DNA of 64,000 nucleotides from Thiotrichales bacterium. GTDB lineage: Bacteria > Pseudomonadota > Gammaproteobacteria > HK1. A program made the translations under genes and the position numbers. Where the stretch lies: the NCBI GenBank assembly GCA_026709935.1, contig JAPOSC010000034.1, positions 62,001 through 126,000 on the forward strand, given 5' to 3'. The notes beneath the pieces were generated by a model that searched no databases, was not told the DNA's origin, and saw only the letters and a program-made list of their open reading frames with translations. Below, in pieces: positions 8,717-20,849 of this stretch (positions within the stretch are counted from its first letter, which is position 1; every line of letters starts with the position of its first letter).

Positions 8717-9550
8717 CTAGATCGCCAGGTACTGCTGGCGCAGGTCCGCGTCATCAAGCACGTCCTGCGACTTGCCGTCGAACACGATCCGGCCCATGTC
8801 GAGGATGATGGCGCGATCGGCGAGATGCAGGGCTGCGATGGCGTTCTGCTCGACGATGATGGTGGTCATGCCGAGATCCTTGATCTGCGCGAGAGTCCGC
8901 TCGATCTCCTGCACGATGACCGGGGCGAGGCCCTCGTAGGGTTCGTCGAGGAGCAGCAGCTTCACGTCGCGCGCGAGCGTGCGGCCGATCGAGAGCATCT
9001 GCTGCTCGCCGCCGGAGAGCGTCGTGCCCTCCTGCTGCCGGCGCTCGCCGAGTCGCGGGAAGAGGTTGTAGATGCGTTCGACCGTCCAGCCGTGCGGCGG
9101 GGCGATCTGCGCCAGCTCGATATTCTCCTGCACGGTGAGTCCCGAGATGATCCGCCGATCCTCCGGCACCAGCCCGACCCCGGTGCGCGATGCCTGATAC
9201 GCCTTCATCTCGTGCAACGGCTGGTGATCGAGCCACAGCTCGCCCTGCCTGAGCTCGGGATTGTCCAGCCGGGCGATGGCGCGCAGGGTCGAGGTCTTGC
9301 CGGCGCCGTTGCGTCCGAGCAGCGCGACGATCTCGCCTTCGCGCACATCGAAGCTGACCCCCTGAACGATGTAGCTCTCGCCGTAGTAGGCGTGGATGTC
9401 CCAGCAGGAGAAGAAGGCAGGCTGGCCGCCGGTGGTCAGCGCGGGCTTCTTGCCGGGCACCTTGCCCTCGAAGCCGTCGTCATCAAGCAGCGTGTGGGGC
9501 CGCGTCTCGCGATCCGGGGCGGCAGCTTGCGGGGGTCTCGGCTCGGTCAT
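8717..9550 (-). CDS. livF: branched-chain amino acid-type ABC transporter ATP-binding protein LivF
   Basis: Second ATPase of a Liv-type (HAAT) importer, 277 residues. Walker A is LLGRNGAGKTSTL, the signature is LSGGEQQML, Walker B is LLLLDEPYEGLAP, and the switch His is replaced in IIVEQN as usual for LivF. A 45-residue hydrophilic N-terminal extension precedes the ABC domain and is longer than normal. The start ATG overlaps the livG stop by 4 nt (ATGA), showing translational coupling. It is the last gene of the five-gene operon running down from 13936. Confidence 0.93.
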   Translation of the reverse strand: MTEPRPPQAAAPDRETRPHTLLDDDGFEGKVPGKKPALTTGGQPAFFSCWDIHAYYGESYIVQGVSFDVREGEIVALLGRNGAGKTSTLRAIARLDNPELRQGELWLDHQPLHEMKAYQASRTGVGLVPEDRRIISGLTVQENIELAQIAPPHGWTVERIYNLFPRLGERRQQEGTTLSGGEQQMLSIGRTLARDVKLLLLDEPYEGLAPVIVQEIERTLAQIKDLGMTTIIVEQNAIAALHLADRAIILDMGRIVFDGKSQDVLDDADLRQQYLAI

Positions 9551-10302
9551 AGCTGGGCGCCTCCGAGGTACGCCTCCTGAACGCGGTGGTTGCCCTTGAT
9601 CTTCTCCGGCTTGTCCTCGGCGATGACCGCCCCCTGGGCCAGGACGGTGATCTTCTCGGCGAGCGAGAACACGACGTGCATGTCGTGCTCGATCACCACC
9701 ATGGTGACCCCACGCCCGGCGATCCGCTTCATCAGCTCGATCGCGTTGTTGGTGTCGGCGCGGGCCATGCCGGCGGTGGGTTCGTCGAGCAGGAGGAGCT
9801 TGGGGTTCTGCACCAGGCAAATGGCGAGTTCCAGGCGCCGCTTGTCGCCCCGCGAGAGCTGGCCGGCGGGGCGCTCCGCCTGGTCTGCGAGACCGACATC
9901 GGTCAGCATCGCCAGCGCTCGCGCGCGGATCTCGCCGTGCGTGGTCACCAGCCCCCAGGCGTTCAGCGTGAAGGCCCCGTCGCGGGCGGCGAAGGCCGGA
10001 ATCATCACGTTCTCGATCAACGTGAGGTCGCCGAAGATCTCGGGGGTCTGAAAGACCCGGCTGACCCCCGCCTGGTTGATCTCGTGCGGCTTGATCCCGA
10101 GCAGCGACATGCCGTCGAAGGTGACGCTGCCGCTGTCGGGCTCCAGCCTTCCGACGAAGCAGTTGAGCAGGGTCGATTTTCCCGCTCCGTTCGGCCCGAT
10201 GATGGCATGAACGGTGCCGGCCTCGACCTCCAGATTGACGTCGTCCAGCGCCTTCAGGCCGCCGAACCGCTTGTTGACGTTCCTGACCGAGAGAATGCCC
10301 AT
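9547..10302 (-). CDS. livG: branched-chain amino acid-type ABC transporter ATP-binding protein LivG
   Basis: First ATPase of the Liv-type importer, 251 residues, the typical LivG length. Walker A is IIGPNGAGKSTLL, the signature is the slightly atypical LSRGDKRRL, Walker B is LLLLDEPTAGM, and the switch is VVIEHDMHVVFSLAEKI, the characteristic LivG ending of the switch region. It lies 42 bp after livM and overlaps livF by 4 nt. Confidence 0.94.
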   Translation of the reverse strand: MGILSVRNVNKRFGGLKALDDVNLEVEAGTVHAIIGPNGAGKSTLLNCFVGRLEPDSGSVTFDGMSLLGIKPHEINQAGVSRVFQTPEIFGDLTLIENVMIPAFAARDGAFTLNAWGLVTTHGEIRARALAMLTDVGLADQAERPAGQLSRGDKRRLELAICLVQNPKLLLLDEPTAGMARADTNNAIELMKRIAGRGVTMVVIEHDMHVVFSLAEKITVLAQGAVIAEDKPEKIKGNHRVQEAYLGGAQL

Positions 10303-10344: not shown

Positions 10345-11487
10345 TCACGCGCCGCGGGCGGAAGCGCCGTCCCTGCGGCCGCGGACGATGCCGGCGACGA
10401 GGGCGCTCAGCCGGTTGAAACCTTCCATCAACCCGCCCGGCAGGAAGATGACGATCACCATGAACAGCGCCCCGAGGGTCAGGTGCCACCCCTCGCCGAC
10501 GAACAGCGACGTGACGTTCACCATGAGGTGCTGGATCGGTTCCGGAAGGAAGTCGAAGGCCGCCATCAGGATGCCCTCGTTGAAGGCCGAGAAGATGTTC
10601 TCGAAGTACTTGATGACGCCGGCCCCGATGACCGGCCCGAGCAGGGTCCCGGCGCCGCCGAGGATGGTCATCAGCACCACCTCGCCCGACGCCGTCCACT
10701 GCATGCGCTCGGCGCCGGCCAGCGGGTCCACGACCGCCAGCAGGCCGCCCGCGAGCCCGGCGTACATGCCGGAGACGACGAACGCCGCCAGGGCGTAGGG
10801 CTGCGTGTTCAGTCCGGTGTAGTTCAGACGGTTCTGGTTCGACTTGATCGCACGCAGCATCAGGCCGAACGGAGAGCGGAAGATCCGGATGGCGAGGTAG
10901 AAGCACACGATCGACACCACCCCGCAGAAGTAGAAGCCCGGATAGCCGTTCATGGGGATGCCGAACAGGTCGGAGGACGGGAGGACCGCCCCGTAGTCGC
11001 GTCCCGCCGCCGCGTCCAGAATGCGCGGGTCCGACTGCACGAGTTGCAGCCCGGTTTCGCCGTTGGTGATCGGGGTGAGCACCGAGTAGGCCAGGTTGTA
11101 GCTCATCTGCGCGAAGGCGAGGGTCAGAATCGAGAAGTAGATGCCGGTCCGGCGCAGGCAGATGTACCCGATCACGGCGGCGAACAGGCCGCCGAGCAGG
11201 GTGGCCAGCACGATCGCGGGCAGGGGGTTCATGGTGAGCAGCTTGAAGCTCCAGACCGCGGTGTAGGAGCCGATGCCGAGAAACGCGGCATGTCCGAACG
11301 AGAGGTAGCCCGTCAGCCCGAACAGGATGTTGAAGCCGACGGCAAAGATTCCGAAGATCACGAACTTCTGCAGCAGGTCGGGATAGCCGGCGCCCAGAGG
11401 CGCCATGATGATCGGTCCGCCGAGCACCACGAGCGTGTAGCCGGCGAGCAGGATCAGATCGTTGCGGCTCAGGGTGAGAGTCCTCAT
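10345..11487 (-). CDS. livM: branched-chain amino acid-type ABC transporter permease LivM
   Basis: Inner-membrane permease of the LivM family, 380 residues with about eight to ten hydrophobic helices. The cytoplasmic EAA-like loop is recognisable around [21 protein letters not shown], and [16 protein letters not shown] is the conserved C-terminal motif. It starts 3 bp after the livH stop, so the two permeases are made together. The C-terminal tail is short and Arg-rich. Confidence 0.92.
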
Positions 11488-11490
11488 GGC

Positions 11491-12519
11491 TCAGTGCTCC
11501 ATCACGCCCTTGCGGCCCATCAGGCCCCGCGGGCGAACCAGCAGGATGATCACGGCGATCAGGTAGATGATGATCTGATCGATGCCGGGGAGGATGCTCT
11601 TCACCTCGTTCATCGAGGCGAAGCTCTGCAGGATCCCGAGCAGGAATCCGGCCGCAACCGCGCCGGGGAGCGAGCCCATGCCGCCGACGACGACCACCAC
11701 GAAGCTCAGGACCAGGAAGTCCATGCCCATGTGGTAGTCCGGGCTGAGAATGGGCGTGTACATCAGCCCCGCAAGACCGGCCACCATGGCGGCGATGCCG
11801 AACACGATGGTGAAGCGGCGGTCGACATCGATTCCGAGCAGTCCCACCGTCTCGCGGTCGGCCATGCCCGCGCGGACCACCATCCCGAACGTCGTGAACT
11901 GGAGGAAGGCGAACACCCCGGCGATCACCGCCACCGAGAACAGGAAGTAGACCAGGCGCCACATGGGGTAGACGACGTTGCCCGCGTCCATGCCCACGGC
12001 GACTCCGAAGTCGATCATGCCCTTGGCCACGTCCGGGGCGGGCTGCGGAATCGGGTTCGCCCCGAAGGCGCCCTTGACGATCTCCTGCAGGACGATCGCC
12101 AGGCCGAAGGTGACGAGAATCTGGTCCGCGTGCGGGCGCTTGTAGAAGAAACGGATCAGACCGCGCTCCATGACCACGCCGATAAGCAACATTACAGGGA
12201 TTGCAACCAGGATGGAGACCGGCACCGAGTAGTCGAGAAGCACGGTGCCGAAGTCGCCGAACCACGATTCGACGTACGGCACCCGCACCTCCAGGGGCGT
12301 GCCCCACGCCGTCAACTGGGTGGCGTCCTCGGTGACCTGTTCCAGGCTGAGCAGTGCCTTGACGGACACCGCGCAGAACGCCCCGAGCATGAACAGCGCC
12401 CCGTGGGCGAAGTTCACCACGCCCAGCGTGCCGAAGGTGATGGTGAGCCCGAGGGCGATCAGCGCGTACGCGCCGCCCTTGTCGAGCCCGTTCAGTATCT
12501 GGAGAAGAATGGCGTCCAT
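11491..12519 (-). CDS. livH: branched-chain amino acid-type ABC transporter permease LivH
   Basis: Inner-membrane permease of the LivH family, 342 residues, longer than the usual 290-310 because of an extra loop between the first helices (about residues 50-85). Conserved LivH motifs are present: LNGLDKGGAYALIALGLT near the N-terminus, ILVTFGLAIVLQEI, and GGMGSLPGAVAAGFLLGILQ near the C-terminus. It lies between the binding-protein gene and livM in a tight operon. Confidence 0.92.
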   Translation of the reverse strand: MDAILLQILNGLDKGGAYALIALGLTITFGTLGVVNFAHGALFMLGAFCAVSVKALLSLEQVTEDATQLTAWGTPLEVRVPYVESWFGDFGTVLLDYSVPVSILVAIPVMLLIGVVMERGLIRFFYKRPHADQILVTFGLAIVLQEIVKGAFGANPIPQPAPDVAKGMIDFGVAVGMDAGNVVYPMWRLVYFLFSVAVIAGVFAFLQFTTFGMVVRAGMADRETVGLLGIDVDRRFTIVFGIAAMVAGLAGLMYTPILSPDYHMGMDFLVLSFVVVVVGGMGSLPGAVAAGFLLGILQSFASMNEVKSILPGIDQIIIYLIAVIILLVRPRGLMGRKGVMEH

Positions 12520-12598: not shown

Positions 12599-13936
12599 TC
12601 AGGCGGTGCCGTCGTTGTAGGGACCGAGCTCCCCGCCGAGCATCTCGGCCGGATACTCGACCTGGGCACGCGGCGTGACCTCGACCACTTCGAGGACGTC
12701 GAACTTCGAGGTCGGCGCCTCCTTGCCCTTCACCACCAGCACATCCTTGAAGCACTGGTGATCCGAGGCACGGTACTCGGTCGGGCCGTTGCCGAGCCCG
12801 TCGAACTTGAAGCCCTCGAGGGCCGGGCCGACCACGGACGGCCGGAAGGTGCCCGCCCGCTCGCAGGCGTCCGCATAGAGGATCGCTTGGCAGTAGCAGG
12901 TGTGCGCGGCCTGGCTCGGCGGGAAGCCGTACTTCTGGCCGAACGAACGCACGAACGCCTTGGAGCCTTCGTCCTGCAGCGACCAGTGCCAGTTCGTGGA
13001 GCCGAAGATCCCCTTGACGTTCTCGCCCGCACCCTGGGCCATCAGGCGGCTGTAGAGCGGCACCACGATCGCGAAGTCCTTGCCGTTGACCTGCTTGTCC
13101 CGCAGCCCGAACTGCACCGCCTGGGTCAGCGAGTTGACCATGTCGCGGCCGTAGTGGTTGAGCACCAGGACGTCGGCGCCGGAGGTGAGCACCGGGGTGA
13201 TGTACTGCGAGAAGTCGCCGGCGCCGAGGGGGGTGCGGACCGTTTCGTAGGTCTGCCAGCCGAGCTGCTCGGTGTACTTCTTGATCGAGCCTTCCTGGCT
13301 CCAGCCCCAGGTGTAGTCGGCGGTCAGGTGGTAGGCGACGCGGTCGGAGCCGAAGGCGTTCTTCAGCACCGGACCGAGGGCCGCGCCGGACATCTCGGTG
13401 TTGAAGAAGTGGCGGAAGCCGTTGGCCCGCTTGTCCTTGCCGGTGGTGTCGTTCGAGTGGGTGAGTCCGGCCATGAAGATGACGCCGGCCTCCTGGCACA
13501 GGCCCTGAACCGCGATCGCGGTGCTCGACGAGGACCCGCCGGTGATCATGACCGCGCCATCCTTCTCGATCATTCGCTTGGCGCTCGCGCGGGCCGCGTC
13601 CGCCTTGGTCTGGGTGTCGCCGGTCACGTAGATGACCTGCTTGCCGTTGATGCCATTGCCCTTCAACGCCTTCGAGGAGAAGGTGTTCAGCATGCCGCCG
13701 TCGCCCTCGCCGTTGATGTGCTCGGCGGCAAGCTCGTAGGCCCGCAGCTCGTCGGCGCCTTCGTCGGCGTAGGCGCCGGTCTGCGGAACATTGAAGCCGA
13801 GAGTCACCGTCGCGCCCTTGGGCTCGTTGGTGTAGGCGTAGGCGCGCGGGACGAACACCATCGGGGCGGCGAAGCCGGCTCCGACGACAGCCGTGGTCTT
13901 CAGCATGTCGCGCCGGCCAATCTTGCGTTTGCTCAT
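12599..13936 (-). CDS. Tat-exported periplasmic binding protein of the Liv-type ABC importer
   Basis: Periplasmic substrate-binding protein of the peripla_BP_6 (Leu/Ile/Val-BP, amide and urea-type) family, about 445 residues. The N-terminus MSKRKIGRRDMLKTT followed by a hydrophobic stretch ending AYA is a twin-arginine signal, unlike the Sec signal of E. coli LivJ/K. The substrate cannot be read: amino acids, amides, urea or an organic acid are all possible. The ATG at 13936 is preceded by GGAG 9 nt upstream, so it is preferred over a GTG five codons earlier. It heads the livH-livM-livG-livF operon and is divergent from the sensor-kinase locus. Confidence 0.9.
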   Translation of the reverse strand: MSKRKIGRRDMLKTTAVVGAGFAAPMVFVPRAYAYTNEPKGATVTLGFNVPQTGAYADEGADELRAYELAAEHINGEGDGGMLNTFSSKALKGNGINGKQVIYVTGDTQTKADAARASAKRMIEKDGAVMITGGSSSSTAIAVQGLCQEAGVIFMAGLTHSNDTTGKDKRANGFRHFFNTEMSGAALGPVLKNAFGSDRVAYHLTADYTWGWSQEGSIKKYTEQLGWQTYETVRTPLGAGDFSQYITPVLTSGADVLVLNHYGRDMVNSLTQAVQFGLRDKQVNGKDFAIVVPLYSRLMAQGAGENVKGIFGSTNWHWSLQDEGSKAFVRSFGQKYGFPPSQAAHTCYCQAILYADACERAGTFRPSVVGPALEGFKFDGLGNGPTEYRASDHQCFKDVLVVKGKEAPTSKFDVLEVVEVTPRAQVEYPAEMLGGELGPYNDGTA

Positions 13937-14259
13937 CGTTCTGTTCTCCACTGTTGTGCTGTTTCACTTGTCGCTGAGTGCGGAACATGCGCAGGCGGCG
14001 AATTCCGCCCTGACGATCCCCAAACAGTCCGGAGGAATGATAGGGCAAACCGGCCGGCCATTTCGAACCGCTGTTGATGCTGCCGACAGCTTCTGCGCCA
14101 GGTCCGGGCCCATCGGATCGAAGATCCGGCGGCGCAAGTGGCGGCGGTGACTCACACGCTCGCCGGGGGGACGCAGGCCCGGCAACTTGCGGGGATGCGC
14201 AAAATCGAGGTAAATGCGAAGCGAACGGCACGCCGACAATGACGCAAGGAACCTCGGGA
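13937..14259. promoter_or_regulatory. divergent promoter region between the ABC importer and the sensor-kinase operon
   Basis: This 323-bp gap carries the promoters for the liv-type operon (leftward) and for the receiver/sensor-kinase operon (rightward). A small inverted repeat CGGATC-GAA-GATCCG lies at 14114-14128. No gene was found in it. The receiver gene has an AAGGA site at 14246-14250. Confidence 0.5.
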
Positions 14260-14637
14260 ATGGCGAAGCGGGTGCTCCTGGCCGAGGATGAGACCAATAT
14301 CGCGGTGTCCATCGCGTTCCTTCTCGAACGGGCCGGTTTCGAGGTGACGGTCGAGAACGATGGCCGCAAGGCGCTCGACTCGGTGATGGCGAACGCTCCC
14401 GATGTCGTCGTGCTCGATGTGATGCTGCCCGGGCTCGACGGATACGAGATCCTGCACAGGCTGCGGGCGGACCGGCGCGGCGCATCGCTTCCGGTGCTGA
14501 TGCTCACGGCCAAGGGTCAGCGCGAGGACCGCGAGATGGCGCTGAAGTGCGGCGCCGACCTGTTCATGACCAAGCCGTTCTCCAACGCGGAAATTGTTTC
14601 CGCCGTGCGCAGGCTCGCGGACGGAGCCCCGGATTGA
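14260..14637 (+). CDS. single-domain response regulator (CheY-like receiver)
   Basis: A 125-residue receiver domain with no output domain. Acidic pocket residues are in LLAEDE (DE pair), the phospho-acceptor Asp is in DVVVLDVMLPGLDGYE, Thr is in VLMLTAKGQ and Lys is in MTKPFSNAE. Such proteins signal by protein contacts or phosphotransfer rather than DNA binding. The ATG at 14260 has AAGGA 9 nt upstream; an earlier ATG at 14239 lacks a site. It is followed 20 bp later by a small membrane protein and then the SSF-type kinase, so it is very likely the kinase's partner. Confidence 0.88.
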   Translation: MAKRVLLAEDETNIAVSIAFLLERAGFEVTVENDGRKALDSVMANAPDVVVLDVMLPGLDGYEILHRLRADRRGASLPVLMLTAKGQREDREMALKCGADLFMTKPFSNAEIVSAVRRLADGAPD

Positions 14638-14656
14638 CCCCCGCGGGCGCAGCCAC

Positions 14657-14923
14657 TTGACCGCTCCCGCCGAGATCGGGCCGGCCTCCGGCAAGGCCCG
14701 CGATCGGTCGATTGCCCTGGTCGTGGTCGGAGTCGTGCTTCTCATGCCGCCGCTCGTCGGCGTATCGCTGGTCGACGGCAGCATCGCCGGCATGCCGATT
14801 CCACTGGTATACGTCCTTGTCGTCTGGGTGGGGCTCATCGCGGCGGCCGCGGCGCTTGCCCGGCCGCTGCGCAGCGGCGAGACCATCGACTCGTCCGAGA
14901 GCGCGAACGACGCCACCGGCTGA
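14657..14923 (+). CDS. small two-helix membrane protein, possible symporter small subunit
   Basis: An 88-residue protein from a TTG start beginning MTAPAEIG. The start codon is inferred, since no ATG lies at a suitable place. It has two predicted membrane helices (ALVVVGVVLLMPPLVGVSL and PLVYVLVVWVGLIAAAAAL) and an acidic tail. Layout and position directly before an SSF-domain gene recall the small subunits (DUF4212/DUF485-like) that accompany sodium:solute symporters. Its stop overlaps the start of the kinase by 1 nt (TGATG), so the two are translationally coupled. Confidence 0.7.
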   Translation: MTAPAEIGPASGKARDRSIALVVVGVVLLMPPLVGVSLVDGSIAGMPIPLVYVLVVWVGLIAAAAALARPLRSGETIDSSESANDATG

Positions 14924-17592
14924 TGCTGTCGGTCAACACGGTCCTCGCCGTCTGTCTCGGGTACGTGGTGCTGCTGTTCGCGGTCGCCTTCATCGTGGAC
15001 CGGCGCACCCGGACCCGCCGGCTCGGGTGGCTCAACTCTCCGGTCGTCTACACCCTTTCCATCTCCATCTACTGCACGTCGTGGACGTTCTACGGCGCGG
15101 TGGGGTCGGCGGCGCGCAACGGTCTCGAATTCGTCGCGATCTACCTCGGCCCCACGCTCGTGTTCGTCGGCTGGTGGTGGTGTCTGCGCAAGCTGGTGCG
15201 CATCGGGCGCGCCCACCGGATCACCTCGATCGCGGATCTGATCTCGTCGCGTTACGGCAAGAGTTCGAGCCTCGCGGTCCTGGTCACCGTGATTGCGCTG
15301 ATCGCGACCACTCCGTACATCGCCTTGCAGCTCCAGTCGCTGACCCGCAGCTATCAGGTCATCGCCGGGGAAAGCGACGGTGTGGCGACGGCGTTCTGGA
15401 TCGCGGCCGGCATGGCGCTGTTCACGATCCTGTTCGGCACCCGGAACCTGGACGCGAACGAGCGTCACCAGGGCGTCGTCGCCGCCATCGCTGTGGAGGC
15501 GGTGGTCAAGCTCTTCGCGCTGCTCGCGGTGGGGGTGTTCGCCGCCTGGTCTCTGGCGGACGGCTTCACCGATATCTTCGCGGACGTTCCCGCCGAGGTC
15601 GTCGTCGGCGCCGGCGAGGTCTTCGGCGCGCGCTGGGTGGTGCTCACGTTTCTGTCCGCGACCGCCATCATCTGCCTCCCGCGGCAGTTCCAGGTGACGG
15701 TGGTGGAGAACATCGACGAACGTCACCTCTCCACCGCTTCGTGGCTGTTTCCCCTGTACCTGTTCGGCATGACGCTGTTCATCATGCCGATCGCGATCGT
15801 CGGGCTGAAGGTCATGCCGGCGGGGGCCAATCCTGACCTCTTCGTGCTCACGCTGCCGCTCTCCGCCGAACGCCACGAGCTGGCGCTGCTTGCCTTCCTC
15901 GGCGGCTTCTCGTCCGCCACCTCGATGGTGATCGTGGCGACGATCGCGGTATCGACGATGCTCTCGAACCACATCGTGATGCCGATCGCGTTGCGGGTGC
16001 TGGCGGCCGGACGGGCGGTGAGCGGGGACGTCCGCGCCCTTCTGCTGGTGTCCCGGCGCGTGTGCATCGGCGTCATCCTCGGCCTGGGATTCCTCTACTT
16101 CCGGTTGAGCGGCGGCTCGGATGCGCTTGCCGCGATCGGTTTGATCGCCTTCGTGGGCGTCGCGCAGTTCCTGCCGAGCCTCCTTGGCGGCATCTTCTGG
16201 CGCGGAGGGACGCGCACCGGCGCGGCCTGCGGCCTGCTGGCGGGCTTCGCGCTATGGGCCTATACATTGTTCCTGCCGAGCTTCGGGGGGGACGTGATTC
16301 TGAGCCCCGAGGTACTGCGCGACGGTCCGGCGGGGATCGCTGCGCTGCGCCCGCAGGCGCTGCTGGGCCTCGACGGACTCGATCCGCTGGTGCACGCGGT
16401 GGTGTGGAGCGTCGGGGTCAACGCGCTCGCGTTCGTCGTTGTTTCAAGCCTGACCCGGCCCGGCGCTCTGGAGCGACTCCAGGCGACCGTTTTCGTGGAC
16501 GTGTACCGCGCCGCCGGCGGCGCCCCGTCGAGCGTCCTCGTCGGTACCGCCGCCTCCGAGGATCTCTTTCTCCTCGCCCGCCGCATTCTCGGCGACGGCT
16601 TCGCGCGTTCCCTGTTCGACGAGATGGCGGCGGCCCAAGGGCGCTCCGGGGGGCTGCCGGATCCGACCGACGCGGTCATCGGCCGACTCGAGCGCGAGCT
16701 CTCCGGCTCGATCGGGGCGGCCTCCGCGCACGCGCTGGTCAACCGGATCGCGGACCGGCAGTCACTCGGCATGACCGAGCTGATCGACATCGCCGACGAG
16801 TCCCAGCAGATGATCGAGGCCGCGCACGAGTTCGCCGAGAAGTCGGCGGAGCTCGAGCGCACCGCGGTGCAGCTTCGCGCCGCCAATGAGCGGCTTCGGG
16901 CGCTCGATGCGCAGAAGGACGAGTTTCTGGGCCAGCTCAGCCACGAGCTGCGCACTCCGATGACCTCCATCCGGTCGTTCTCGGAAATCCTGATGGATGA
17001 AGAGGGAGTGCCCGATCAGGAGCGCCGGCGCTTCGTGTCCATCATCAACGAGGAGAGCCAGCGCCTGACCCGGTTGCTCGACGAGCTGCTCGACATCAGC
17101 CGGCTCGAGGGTGGCTCGATCGACCTTCGCCTCGAAACGATCGGGGTGCCCGAGGCAATCGGCAAGGCGCTCGATGCGATCGCCGGCACGACGCGGGACG
17201 CGGGGGTGACGGTCACGGCGGACCCCGGGCGCGCCGGCCTGCGGGTGGAGTCCAACCCCGATCGCCTTCGGCAGGTGTTGATCAATCTGCTGTCGAACGC
17301 GGTGAAGTACAACCCGGCGCCACAGCCCGAGATTCGAGTGAGCGTGAACGAGAACGGATCGATGGTCGATATCGACGTCGCGGACAACGGCGGCGGCGTG
17401 ACGCACGCCGAGGCGGCCATGATCTTCGAGAAGTTCGCGCGCGGAGACCGTTCCGACCGCAGCTACGGGGTCGGACTCGGGCTGCCCATCAGCCGGGCCA
17501 TCATGCGGGCGATGAACGGCGACCTGACGGTGGAGTTCGCCCCCGACGGCACGAGCTTCTTCCGTATTCGCATGCCGCGGGCCGACCCATGA
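14923..17592 (+). CDS. SSF-STAC sensor histidine kinase (CrbS-like)
   Basis: An 889-residue fusion of a sodium:solute symporter domain (residues about 1-500, some 13 membrane helices, opening with LAVCLGYVVLLFAVAFI), a STAC-like linker (about 540-635, with LARRILGDGFARSLFDEM and GAASAHALVNRI), a coiled coil and a histidine kinase. The phosphorylated His is in SHELRTP, the N box in NLLSNAVKYN, and ATP lid motifs in DNGGG and GVGLGLPI. CrbS-type proteins sense or transport small carboxylates such as acetate. The output is probably the receiver encoded two genes upstream. It converges on aprA. Confidence 0.9.
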   Translation: MLSVNTVLAVCLGYVVLLFAVAFIVDRRTRTRRLGWLNSPVVYTLSISIYCTSWTFYGAVGSAARNGLEFVAIYLGPTLVFVGWWWCLRKLVRIGRAHRITSIADLISSRYGKSSSLAVLVTVIALIATTPYIALQLQSLTRSYQVIAGESDGVATAFWIAAGMALFTILFGTRNLDANERHQGVVAAIAVEAVVKLFALLAVGVFAAWSLADGFTDIFADVPAEVVVGAGEVFGARWVVLTFLSATAIICLPRQFQVTVVENIDERHLSTASWLFPLYLFGMTLFIMPIAIVGLKVMPAGANPDLFVLTLPLSAERHELALLAFLGGFSSATSMVIVATIAVSTMLSNHIVMPIALRVLAAGRAVSGDVRALLLVSRRVCIGVILGLGFLYFRLSGGSDALAAIGLIAFVGVAQFLPSLLGGIFWRGGTRTGAACGLLAGFALWAYTLFLPSFGGDVILSPEVLRDGPAGIAALRPQALLGLDGLDPLVHAVVWSVGVNALAFVVVSSLTRPGALERLQATVFVDVYRAAGGAPSSVLVGTAASEDLFLLARRILGDGFARSLFDEMAAAQGRSGGLPDPTDAVIGRLERELSGSIGAASAHALVNRIADRQSLGMTELIDIADESQQMIEAAHEFAEKSAELERTAVQLRAANERLRALDAQKDEFLGQLSHELRTPMTSIRSFSEILMDEEGVPDQERRRFVSIINEESQRLTRLLDELLDISRLEGGSIDLRLETIGVPEAIGKALDAIAGTTRDAGVTVTADPGRAGLRVESNPDRLRQVLINLLSNAVKYNPAPQPEIRVSVNENGSMVDIDVADNGGGVTHAEAAMIFEKFARGDRSDRSYGVGLGLPISRAIMRAMNGDLTVEFAPDGTSFFRIRMPRADP

Positions 17593-17679: not shown

Positions 17680-19524
17680 TCAGTCTACGATGTGATAGAC
17701 GGGAGCCTTCTCCATCTCCCACTCGCCCGAGTTCCGGTCGTAGCGGGACACCGTGAAGCAGTGCCAGTCGGTGTCGTCCAGCCTGGGATGATCGGCCCGG
17801 TAGTAGTAGCCCGGCCACCGTGTTTCAGTGCGGAACATCGTGTGCTGGGCCACCGACTCCGAGGCCAGGACGCGGTGGTGGAGCTCCCAGGCGCGCTGGA
17901 GCTGATGGAGGTCTTCGGCCGCGAGATGCTCCAGATCTTCCTTCAGCATGCCCAGCAGCTCGAGCCCCCGGGTGAGCAACGGCTCGTTGGTGGTGTAGTG
18001 GGCACTGATGCCGCCGACGTACTCGTCCATCAGCTTCTCGAGCCGCTGGAGTCCGTTGATGGGCAGGATGTAGCTCGGTGAGACGGTTCCCGCCACGATC
18101 TCGTTGCGTCCCACCCGGTAGTTCTCCAGAGGCTGGTAGATCACCTTGCGCAGTTCGTCGTACTGCCGCTCGCTGACCCGGGGCTGCTCGTTGCGCAGAT
18201 CCATCACGTAGTTGACGGCCGCCTTGGCCGCGATCCGCCCTTCGGTGAATGACCCGGACGAGAACTTGTGGGCGGTCCCGCCGATGGTGTCGCCGGCGCC
18301 GAACAGCCCGTCCACGGTCATCATCCGGTTGTATCCCCACTGGTACTCGTCGGGCGCGTAGTCCGACGGGCCGCTCGCCCAGGCACCGGAGCACGTGGCG
18401 TGCGAACCCATGACATATGGCTCCGAGGTGGTCAGCTCGGGATTGATGTGCTTGGGATCGATGTTCTGGGATGCCCAGACCACCGCCTGTCCGATGGTCA
18501 TGCCGAGGAAGTTCTCCCAGCCCACGGTTTCCTTGTGCGGGTCCTGGAAGGCTTCCTTCGTCACCATGCGAATCGGACCGTTCCCCGCCTTCACTTCCTC
18601 GAGGAATGCATGGTTGCGCAGACAGGTCGGTACCGGGTGCCGGTCGATGTAGTCACCGACCAGCGCCTTGGTGTGGTCGTACCACCGGGATTCGTACTCC
18701 TGGCCGTACGCGTTCTCGGTGTAGGTCTTCAGATGCAGGAAGTAGGCGCCGACCGGGCCGTAGCCGTCCTTGAATCGGGTGAGGACGATCCGGTTTTCCA
18801 TCTGCGTCATCTTGGCGCCGGCGAGTATGGGCAGTGCGTAGGCGGAGGCGCTGCTCCACGGGGCGTACCAGGTTCGGCCCATGCCCTCGCCCACCGCGCG
18901 AGGTTTGTAGATGTGCGAGGCGCCGCCGGCGCAGACGATGACCGCTTTCGCCCGGAAGACATGAAAGTCGCCGGTGCGCACGTTGAAGCCGACGGCTCCG
19001 GCGACCCGGTTGGAATTGCCCTCGTCCATCAGCAGGTGGGTCACCATGATCCGGTTGTAGATCTCGGTGGCGGCCTTGCGGGCGGCCTCGGCCACGATCG
19101 GCTTGTAGCTCTCGCCGTGGATCATGATCTGCCACTTGCCTTCGCGCTGATAACGCCCGGTCTCGGGATCCCGCATGATGGGCAAGCCCCACTCCTCGAA
19201 CTTGTGCACGGTGGAGTCGACGTGGCGCGCGATGTCGTAACCGAGGTCTTCGCGCACGAGTCCCATGAGGTCGTTGCGCGCATAGCGGACGTGATCCTCG
19301 GGCTGGTTCTCGTCCCACTGCATGCCCATGTAGCAGTTGATGGCGTACAGGCCCTGCGCGACCGCGCCGCTGCGCTCGATGTTCGCCTTCTCCACGCACA
19401 CGACCTTCAGATCGCGCCCCCAGTACCGGGATTCGTAGGTGGCGCCGCAGCCGGCCATGCCGCCGCCGACCACGAGAATGTCGGAGTCCACGAATACCGT
19501 CTTTCGCCGGTTGAAGAGTCCCAT
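17680..19524 (-). CDS. aprA: adenylylsulfate reductase alpha subunit
   Basis: FAD-containing catalytic subunit of APS reductase, 614 residues, the family length. The FAD-binding motif is ILVVGGGMAGCGATYESRYW (about residues 17-36). The dinucleotide and substrate regions are recognisable in ERSGAVAQGLYAINCYMG, CAGGASHIYKPRAVGEGMGR and DGLFGAGDTIGGTAHKFSSGSFTEGR. In sulfur oxidisers the enzyme forms APS from sulfite and AMP in the cytoplasm. The ATG overlaps the aprB stop by 1 nt (TGATG). The presence of aprM rather than qmoABC fits the oxidative lineage of Allochromatium-type APS reductases. Confidence 0.97.
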   Translation of the reverse strand: MGLFNRRKTVFVDSDILVVGGGMAGCGATYESRYWGRDLKVVCVEKANIERSGAVAQGLYAINCYMGMQWDENQPEDHVRYARNDLMGLVREDLGYDIARHVDSTVHKFEEWGLPIMRDPETGRYQREGKWQIMIHGESYKPIVAEAARKAATEIYNRIMVTHLLMDEGNSNRVAGAVGFNVRTGDFHVFRAKAVIVCAGGASHIYKPRAVGEGMGRTWYAPWSSASAYALPILAGAKMTQMENRIVLTRFKDGYGPVGAYFLHLKTYTENAYGQEYESRWYDHTKALVGDYIDRHPVPTCLRNHAFLEEVKAGNGPIRMVTKEAFQDPHKETVGWENFLGMTIGQAVVWASQNIDPKHINPELTTSEPYVMGSHATCSGAWASGPSDYAPDEYQWGYNRMMTVDGLFGAGDTIGGTAHKFSSGSFTEGRIAAKAAVNYVMDLRNEQPRVSERQYDELRKVIYQPLENYRVGRNEIVAGTVSPSYILPINGLQRLEKLMDEYVGGISAHYTTNEPLLTRGLELLGMLKEDLEHLAAEDLHQLQRAWELHHRVLASESVAQHTMFRTETRWPGYYYRADHPRLDDTDWHCFTVSRYDRNSGEWEMEKAPVYHIVD

Positions 19525-19988
19525 CAGACCACCCCCTGCTTGAGCTGGTCCGGCGCCAACGCCGGCAGGCCGCTCGCGATGTTGAGGGCGTCCGGCTCGT
19601 GCGCGAGTTCCTGGGACTGCATGGCATCGCCACTCGGCGGGGGCAGATCGGCCGGTGACGGGATCGAGCCCCAGGGCGTGGTCCGGATCGGAGAGACGAA
19701 GTTCTTTACCCGTCCGTCCCGGAATTCGATACGCCAGGAAATCGTGCCCTTTGCTTCCTCGCGCAGCGCTCGCACGCTGTGGCCGAGCGGAGCGAAGTCC
19801 GCGTAGCCGCGCGCGTCAATGGCGTTCTGGGGGCAGGCCTTGACGCAGGAGTAGCACTCCCAGCACATGTTGGGCTCGATGTTGTAAGCGCGGCGGTAGG
19901 TCTTGTCGATGTGCATGATGTCCGAAGGACAGACATCCACGCAGTGACCACAACCGTCGCAGCGCGTCATGTAGACGAATGTCGGCAT
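19524..19988 (-). CDS. aprB: adenylylsulfate reductase beta subunit
   Basis: Iron-sulfur subunit of APS reductase, 154 residues. Two [4Fe-4S] ligand sets are visible: CDGCGHCVDVCP (about residues 9-20) and CWECYSCVKACP (about 42-53). A C-terminal tail of about 80 residues wraps AprA in known structures. It transfers electrons between the AprA flavin and the membrane partner AprM. It is followed directly by aprA with a 1-nt overlap and preceded by aprM by 72 bp. Confidence 0.97.
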   Translation of the reverse strand: MPTFVYMTRCDGCGHCVDVCPSDIMHIDKTYRRAYNIEPNMCWECYSCVKACPQNAIDARGYADFAPLGHSVRALREEAKGTISWRIEFRDGRVKNFVSPIRTTPWGSIPSPADLPPPSGDAMQSQELAHEPDALNIASGLPALAPDQLKQGVV

Positions 19989-20060
19989 GGGATTCGACCA
20001 GTTGTCGGGTTGATAGGGAGGTGGCCCGGGTGTGGCTCGGGTTGGTTCGGGGTGGCTCGG

Positions 20061-20849
20061 TCAGTAGTTCTGGGGCGCTCTGCGCGCACTGCCGAACTCC
20101 TCCGGCCGGTCGGCCGGCGGGGGCAGCTTGCTTCGCGACCCGTCCGCTTCCGATACACGCTTCTGCAACGCCGCGGCGGGCTTGAAGAACATGTGCGCGA
20201 ACTTCGACCAGGGCACCGATGCGAACAGCAAGGTGGTGGTGAGGACATAGAGGGCGAAGAACACCCCGGCCCCCCATGACGCTCCCGCCCCTTGCAGGAA
20301 CGACCACACGAGACCCAGGGTCACGCTTGCGAGAAGCGACAGGATGAAGAGGTCCGCGTGCATGACCCGGAATGGCGAGTTGCCCTCGGCCGAGACGTCG
20401 GCGCGGATGAAGAACCAGAACCAGTACCCGCCGACGCAGACCATCAGCGCCCCGACATGCCACAGGATCGGCAGAACATCGGGGGCCGGGGTGTCGGGGG
20501 TCGGGTATCCGAAGACCATGATCGCGGTGGTGACGATGTAGGCCAGAAAGCCGTACATCGTCAGGAGATGAGCGATTCGCCGCCGCGCATTGCAGAATTC
20601 TCCGGAGGTCAGCACCTCCACGCAGAGCGTCCGGAGCGCAAGCGATACAAGCTCTCCGCTGCCGACCTGTCTCGCCCCTCTGCTTGCCGCGCTGCGCCAG
20701 TTGTCGAAGAAGTATCTGGCGCTTCCCTTGTGAATGACGTCGTACAGGGTGCCGGCCACCACCAGGACCACCATCACGATGACATATGCCTGCACGATGG
20801 CCGGTCCGATGGATGCCGAAAGCTCGACGAAGGGGTTGTGGGTAAACAT
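20061..20849 (-). CDS. aprM: APS reductase membrane anchor AprM
   Basis: A 262-residue integral membrane protein with about five to six helices (first one AYVIVMVVLVVAGTLYDVI). Its resemblance to the membrane half of QmoC/heterodisulfide-reductase-type subunits, together with its place directly before aprBA, identifies it as AprM, the proposed electron link from AprBA to the quinone pool. His residues in helices (RRIAHLL, ILWHVGAL, VMHADL) could ligate heme. The C-terminal 35 residues are hydrophilic. The promoter of aprMBA must lie in the 193-bp gap shared with the divergent nitroreductase gene. Confidence 0.88.
   Translation of the reverse strand: MFTHNPFVELSASIGPAIVQAYVIVMVVLVVAGTLYDVIHKGSARYFFDNWRSAASRGARQVGSGELVSLALRTLCVEVLTSGEFCNARRRIAHLLTMYGFLAYIVTTAIMVFGYPTPDTPAPDVLPILWHVGALMVCVGGYWFWFFIRADVSAEGNSPFRVMHADLFILSLLASVTLGLVWSFLQGAGASWGAGVFFALYVLTTTLLFASVPWSKFAHMFFKPAAALQKRVSEADGSRSKLPPPADRPEEFGSARRAPQNY

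Follow-up and report, generated by a model that had tools for sequence, protein, structure and literature searches.

The 64,000-nucleotide stretch analysed here (the window), from a Thiotrichales bacterium, carries an operon encoding a stand-alone receiver, a small two-helix membrane peptide and an SSF-STAC histidine kinase, which is divergent from a five-gene ATP-binding cassette (ABC) importer. The pairing of such a peptide with such a kinase is already known as CbrX-CbrA of Pseudomonas; what is new relative to that pair is a free receiver together with a hairpin-bearing regulator. In most relatives of the operon a fourth gene encodes an XRE/ScfR regulator into which a DHp-type hairpin with a conserved histidine is inserted, and this regulator is absent from the window's genome. 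We propose, with a probability of roughly 55%, that kinase, receiver and regulator form one conserved signalling unit in which the receiver docks on the inserted hairpin, and of which the window's operon would be the sensing half. The operon and its upstream region comprise the following features.

14260..14637, + strand: stand-alone receiver (REC) of 125 residues, from ATG 14260 to TGA 14637, with a PF00072 domain.
14657..14923, + strand: CbrX-like two-helix membrane peptide of 88 residues, from a TTG start to TGA (alignments A3 and A8).
14923..17592, + strand: SSF-STAC histidine kinase of 889 residues, from an ATG start, with HisKA and HATPase_c domains, a match to the solved chain 10ed_A and Foldseek matches.
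13952..14259, no strand: divergent intergenic region, occupied in relatives by the DHp-ScfR gene and TTTGTAAAT boxes, neither of which is present here in the window.

The three genes had been described in a first-pass annotation of the same DNA, and their coordinates, their order and the single-nucleotide overlap all hold, which confirms the observation. The REC domain spans residues 5-117 of the receiver (E 3.4e-27) with no output domain detected by Pfam, and Asp53, Thr83 and Lys105 are all intact; an in-frame ATG at 14239 is a possible alternative start. Nineteen nucleotides separate the receiver from the peptide, for which TTG 14657 was our choice of start, and the peptide stop and kinase start read tgAtg, with exactly one shared A.

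Conservation was surveyed in the best 80 of 586 loci from one contig scan, which are the basis of the locus counts given below; 76 of them have more than 2.3 kb upstream and could be tested for upstream genes. Counts rest on tblastn, and the gene caller chose antisense frames in high-GC loci. The receiver lies on the same strand and at most 1.5 kb upstream of the kinase in 75 of the 76 testable loci, the other (L042) having it instead 3.8 kb downstream. The peptide was called in 70 of 76 testable loci (73 of 80 overall) by frame, position, length and hydrophobicity, criteria that bias towards finding it, and its gene ends 1 nucleotide into the kinase gene in 22 loci and 4 nucleotides into it in 15. 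Relatives keep the small frame, and their receiver and kinase genes remain together, as the first-pass reading of a three-gene unit demanded, and because the order recurs across these loci it is more than chance. Asp53 is kept in 76 of 79 aligned receiver rows (three gaps), Lys105 also in 76 (two gaps, one Glu) and Thr83 in 74, with Ser in two more (three gaps); three of the 78 receiver readings are fragments of 5-17 residues. At L025:14216-14593 (-) and L026:13616-13993 (-), a few genes beyond the kinase on its downstream side, lies another stand-alone receiver, with 44% BLAST identity to that of the window.

The fourth gene lies between importer and receiver in the relatives: an ScfR-like gene was located in 73 of 76 testable loci, upstream and on the same strand in 71. 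All 49 members of its alignment (A4) combine an XRE helix-turn-helix (HTH) domain with PF09856 (ScfR), an assignment that ruled out a second histidine kinase, a candidate raised by BLAST similarity to the SSF kinase. The middle region of these regulators aligned with the kinase DHp, His on His (hhalign probability 97.7, E 1.3e-12). Twelve hairpin-bearing ScfRs matched 17 ordinary ScfRs, drawn from the relatives' same genomes, from end to end (probability 100, E 2e-105) with a sole gap of about 64 residues that corresponds to the hairpin; the hairpin profile by itself found nothing in the ordinary ScfRs (probability 0.5). The putative phospho-His is present in 75 of 78 aligned rows, the remainder being one Asn and two rows without a residue in that column (L111 and L114), while the next position (H+1) is Glu or Asp in 59 of 78 and H+4 is Ser, Thr or Asn in 75 of 78. 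An AlphaFold2 model of a hairpin ScfR, with a mean predicted local distance difference test (pLDDT) score of 88.5, contains helices at 136-161, which include His143, and at 167-199. In VIA-align, MtPrpR (6cyy, Z 25.7) covered model residues 205-466 and HTH proteins covered the N terminus, neither extending over the hairpin; no histidine kinase was among the proteins listed, which for this tool is barely a test of the hairpin. The input to structure alignment was 49 of the 76 located ScfRs. The invariant cysteines of the acyl-CoA regulator domain are kept. By sequence and model, the helix pair with its conserved phospho-His and polar H+4 residue qualifies as a DHp-type hairpin and putative phosphate acceptor.

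The hairpin is confined to the neighbourhood of SSF kinases in 12 genomes hand-chosen from the 80 loci. Searches with it returned the ScfR (or ScfRs) as best match and then the SSF kinase's own DHp in 12 of 12 (E 1.7e-8 to 4.8e-4), with all non-cassette matches at E 0.024 or worse. These genomes hold 26 PF09856 genes, 13 with the hairpin and 13 without, and each of the 13 hairpin ScfRs has an SSF kinase no more than about 4 kb away. Among the 80 loci, L075, L076, L092 and L102 have no adjacent ScfR, and a hairpin ScfR was found elsewhere in each assembly. No description of a DHp hairpin in an ScfR was found in the literature searched, whose reach excluded most subscription papers; the nearest precedent is Pden_1785, an ScfR that clusters with a two-component system (PMC10370305).

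Some variants of the arrangement were also recorded. The only hairpin ScfR with Asn at the phospho-His position belongs to Yoonia sediminilitoris (L099:7982-9286), and the genome of L118 (G061) has two separate sets of hairpin ScfR and SSF kinase, at C1:662135-664211 and C2:537046-541110. PAS-pseudokinase-exonuclease fusions resembling the kinase DHp-CA stand beside SSF-STAC kinases at L039:913-3042 (-), L028:11485-13722 (+) and L030:408-2405 (-); considered as a parallel DHp partner, they were rejected for loss of the phospho-His. The window's genome has no such fusion, the matches there being a separate exonuclease-like one, a PAS-kinase-like one and the SSF kinase itself.

Paired TTTGTAAAT boxes sit at the hairpin-ScfR promoter in relatives. 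Of the 49 regions preceding hairpin ScfRs, 44 contain the box with at most one mismatch and 24 contain it at least twice, compared with means of 3.7 and 0.23 for 100 mononucleotide shuffles; 17 pairs of boxes are spaced 32 bp apart. The motif was derived from and counted in the same, related sequences, and these figures overstate the evidence. The ScfR box TTTGCAAA was not enriched (1 of 47 regions). Sites of ScfR proteins typically consist of two near-identical boxes (PMC10370305). In the window, no TTTGTAAAT box was found at 13931-14262, and the single near-match in the 64 kb, at 18904, falls inside aprA, 0.55 being expected.

In the route that we propose, the CbrX-like hairpin would dock on the SSF domain, which would sense and perhaps move a small carboxylate together with protons, and STAC would relay the state of the SSF domain to the DHp-CA kinase, which would phosphorylate the stand-alone receiver at Asp53. 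In most relatives the receiver would then dock on, and probably phosphorylate, the histidine of the DHp hairpin inserted in the XRE/ScfR regulator, which would control the promoter of the divergent ABC importer, whose genes are often succeeded by one for acetyl-CoA synthetase. The first protein steps draw on knowledge of the families concerned, and the last on homology, conservation and gene order. The free receiver is probably the go-between from kinase to regulator in the relatives, because their ScfR carries a kinase-like DHp hairpin with its His kept; since the receiver is free and the next protein bears a histidine of the type that receivers recognize, a His-Asp-His relay is the natural reading. 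The protein-protein output that the first-pass annotation had suggested for the receiver is likewise supported. More broadly, we tentatively envisage a widespread alphaproteobacterial relay running from a transporter-kinase through a free receiver to a histidine inside a transcription factor, its hairpin copied from the kinase into an acyl-CoA-sensing ScfR, so that one protein would weigh outside substrate against internal acyl-CoA before the importer is switched on, with the window holding this relay minus its last member; the odds of this fuller picture seem to us a little short of even.

Several observations weigh against the proposed unit. With no ScfR in the window's genome, the proposed output cannot work in it, and two class-mates, G030 (receiver-peptide-kinase) and G031 (peptide-kinase-receiver), have all three genes without a PF09856 protein. 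In the inserted hairpin the Pro that follows the H-box (H+5) is lost, the L099 row has Asn instead of His, and Pfam HisKA matches just 6 of 49 ScfRs (best E 0.0022). ABC genes are not within reach in 18 of the 69 loci with at least 4.6 kb upstream, the box counts are inflated as stated above, and P. putida without CbrX still grows on histidine (PMC13022988).

The main rival to the relay is docking without phosphotransfer, the hairpin being a decoy that is bound by the phosphorylated receiver and thereby shifts the dimer or tetramer state of the regulator, as a partner switch. The missing Pro at H+5 would suit a decoy, as would the lack of a kinase (CA) domain among the Pfam matches of the ScfRs and the fusions with a lost His in other SSF-kinase clusters (L039 and L028), and ordinary ScfRs change oligomer state upon ligand binding (PMC10370305). 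Retention of the His and of Ser, Thr or Asn at H+4, each in 75 of 78 rows, goes beyond what a pure decoy needs, and we regard docking without transfer as a serious but somewhat unlikely alternative.

PF09856 had no match in the window's genome (95.9% complete), where a hairpin ScfR query returned the kinase's own DHp, two short HTH-like matches and nothing else. In the kinase tree (39 rows) the window stands beside L041 (100/99) and then L042 and L043, amid mostly alphaproteobacterial records, and these three nearest relatives carry the regulator; given this placement, the simplest reading is that the window's genome lost both the regulator and the operator boxes. Rho is 67-89% identical to that of six same-genus, same-family or same-class genomes (67% for G041, 78-89% for the others), 66-69% to that of five genomes with loci titled as alphaproteobacterial and 75% to that of L042's genome, a weak, single-gene indication that the host is probably not alphaproteobacterial. 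A 16S search found no match in G000. Because the kinase groups with mostly alphaproteobacterial records while Rho suggests a different host, the cassette was probably acquired by the window's lineage. The 'three-part' sensor of the first-pass annotation is thus real as to its three genes but represents a reduced form, in which the usual fourth member, the DHp-bearing ScfR of 71 of 76 relatives, is absent and had been missed.

Such a three-part form may be functional, because G030 and G031 keep the three genes without PF09856, and the receiver would in that case act through some other partner or only back on the kinase. Alternatively, the module could be a decaying, functionless leftover of regulator loss, in line with the missing regulator and boxes despite the presence of the regulator in the three nearest tree relatives and with the lack of the cassette in four same-genus genomes, none of which has the kinase or the binding protein. 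All three frames are nevertheless intact, the key receiver residues are kept, and the two class-mates retain receiver, peptide and kinase without ScfR, which makes decay unlikely.

The sensing half itself can be compared closely with CbrA. Pfam located HisKA at residues 664-731 (E 8e-20) and HATPase_c at 778-886 (E 2.7e-24) of the kinase, whose H-box, SHELRTP, is intact; Pfam did not recognize the SSF domain at E<=1, nor did it find the PAS domain and fused C-terminal receiver that are features of known relatives. A profile of the kinase and five relatives matched chain 10ed_A (E 4.5e-108) over positions 6-624, that is SSF and STAC, the alignment reaching chain residue 590 of 606 and so covering the STAC region; the entry is titled 'histidine kinase', and from name, length and the Lys196 match we take it to be CbrA. 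The AlphaFold2 model of residues 1-650 (mean pLDDT 78.8) has four helices at 545-609 and matched SGLT2, NIS, CHT1 and SiaT in Foldseek (best E 1.5e-9). By sequence and model, the reading of an N-terminal LeuT-type SSF transporter followed by a four-helix STAC is correct, and the protein has the features of an SLC5-STAC kinase: an SSF domain, a STAC between transporter and kinase, and a DHp-CA with intact H-box.

PMC13022988 names nine CbrA positions that line the pocket or lie close to it, and these were mapped through a HMMER alignment to 10ed_A. Six are identical in the window kinase: Tyr50, Trp54, Phe70, Tyr74 and Phe410 (window numbering; Tyr51, Trp55, Phe71, Tyr75 and Phe406 in CbrA), and Lys196, which lies at the Na2 site in both proteins. 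Because this lysine replaces sodium, coupling to protons is suggested for the window kinase. Ser53 of CbrA is replaced by Thr, a mild change, and Ala56 and Phe248 by Thr and Ser, both marked changes, and histidine, considered as the ligand, is doubtful because of these three replacements.

The peptide has two hydrophobic stretches, taken as two transmembrane helices, and belongs to no Pfam or NCBIfam family above cut-off; DUF4212 (PF13937) was rejected as its family, with no match in the peptide or anywhere in the genome. Pro32 and Trp57 are invariant in the 22 rows of alignment A8. Compared by hhalign with the peptides that precede further CbrA-like kinases in three genomes (A7), the window's peptide family gave a probability of 92.7 (E 4.4e-7), which supports kinship with CbrX but does not prove it, as hydrophobic hairpins may align by composition. 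CbrX is a small frame that overlaps cbrA, is translationally coupled to it and is needed for its translation (PMC6591292). A 2026 preprint shows by cryo-electron microscopy that it forms a helical hairpin lying against TM3 and TM8 of CbrA, with both ends inside, and reports that it co-purifies bound to the kinase (PMC13022988); no CbrX chain was found in the PDB by sequence at E<=10. The window's peptide shares with CbrX the two transmembrane helices and a gene overlapping the kinase start. It is likely to be a symporter subunit, as its first description had supposed, given its conserved residues and the binding of CbrX to CbrA, whereas the pairing itself is not new, being that of the published CbrX-CbrA (PMC6591292, PMC13022988). 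A mere translational leader for the kinase would account for the 1- or 4-nucleotide overlaps in 37 of the 73 loci with a peptide call, and in P. putida an altered CbrX of equal length restored CbrA translation, its sequence being judged unimportant (PMC6591292); the two invariant residues and the co-purification of CbrX with CbrA render this rival improbable.

The importer divergent from the operon is of the HAAT (Urt/Liv-like) type and is encoded by five genes.

12599..13951, - strand: Tat-type substrate-binding protein of the HAAT importer (PF13458, E 1.1e-66; UrtA 51.5 bits against a cut-off of 492.75).
11491..12519, - strand: ABC permease 1 (PF02653, E 3e-35).
10345..11487, - strand: ABC permease 2 (PF02653, E 1.4e-35).
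9547..10302, - strand: ABC ATPase 1, UrtD/LivG-like (PF00005, E 5.1e-35; UrtD 242.4 bits against a cut-off of 304.1).
8717..9496, - strand: ABC ATPase 2, UrtE/LivF-like (PF00005, E 2.1e-30; UrtE 199.1 bits against a cut-off of 285.8).

A urea transporter was rejected, all five genes missing the UrtA, B, C, D and E equivalog cut-offs. The tie between operon and importer, proposed earlier from their divergent arrangement, recurs: an ABC binding protein is in reach in 51 of 69 loci. Among 55 genomes of the window's own relatives, the binding protein was found at E<=1e-60 in three (G000, G010 and G016), all of which also have an ABC-linked kinase; kinase matches at E<=0.001 occurred in 16 of 55, of which the weakest are ordinary symporters. 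G010 and G016 encode the same partners in another layout, with ABC genes, receiver, peptide and kinase following one another in this order on one strand. On the far side of the ABC genes, 17 of 47 testable loci have an acetyl-CoA synthetase; none was found in the window. Genes resembling it, identified by eye from translations, stand near SSF-STAC kinases of class-mates (L027:5114-7051, L030:12978-14942, L037:13868-15808 and L039:3553-5493). On the other side of the operon, window 17680-20849 (-) holds aprA (TIGR02061, 971 bits), aprB (TIGR02060, 195 bits) and then a membrane protein that resembles QmoC but scores below cut-off; these genes point to dissimilatory sulfur metabolism.

For CbrA-type transporter-receptor kinases, signal output is known for few DNA-binding partners, and the bare receiver now gains a specific, testable target, a histidine hairpin within a metabolic regulator. 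If the proposal is true, an Asp would pass phosphate to a His within a DNA-binding protein, and in Rhodobacteraceae and relatives two-component signalling would be united with the direct sensing of acyl-CoA. Several relatives of the operon belong to named strains, for example of Leisingera, Ruegeria and Thalassospira, where the route can be tested. In the Spo0F-Spo0B relay and with ChpT, a receiver passes phosphate to a DHp-type histidine; the DHp proposed here would differ in lying within the transcription factor itself, with no subsequent receiver.

The relatives' fourth gene resembles RamB, PccR and MtPrpR in its XRE HTH, ScfR C-terminal domain and invariant cysteines (PMC10370305, PMC6765138), and differs from them, as far as they are described there, in the DHp insert of about 64 residues and in an operon shared with a receiver and an SSF kinase. 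CrbS/CrbR and RpuS/RpuR likewise employ an SLC5-STAC kinase, in their case linked to the use of acetate or pyruvate; theirs is a hybrid kinase with a fused receiver and a LuxR-type DNA-binding regulator (PMC9100948, PMC5715377). The difference from CrbS/CrbR drawn in the first-pass annotation stands, Pfam finding no receiver domain in the window kinase and the adjoining partner being a bare receiver, and its interpretation as a whole is partly supported. A conventional pair, with the receiver as phosphate sink or adaptor and output through a LuxR-type regulator elsewhere, would follow the LuxR regulators of known SLC5-STAC systems (PMC9100948), but CrbS and RpuS carry a fused receiver (PMC9100948) and ScfR is the recurrent regulator among the families searched around the best 80 of 586 loci, and we think such a pair improbable here.

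The closest known system remains CbrX-CbrA/CbrB of Pseudomonas, which shares the two-helix peptide overlapping an SSF-STAC kinase and the Lys at the Na2 site (PMC6591292, PMC13022988). Compared with CbrA, the window kinase has no PAS domain by Pfam and carries Thr, Thr and Ser in place of Ser53, Ala56 and Phe248. CbrB has AAA and HTH domains, whereas the window partner is a bare receiver, and the cbr operon, as published, has no ABC importer, whereas the window operon is divergent from one.

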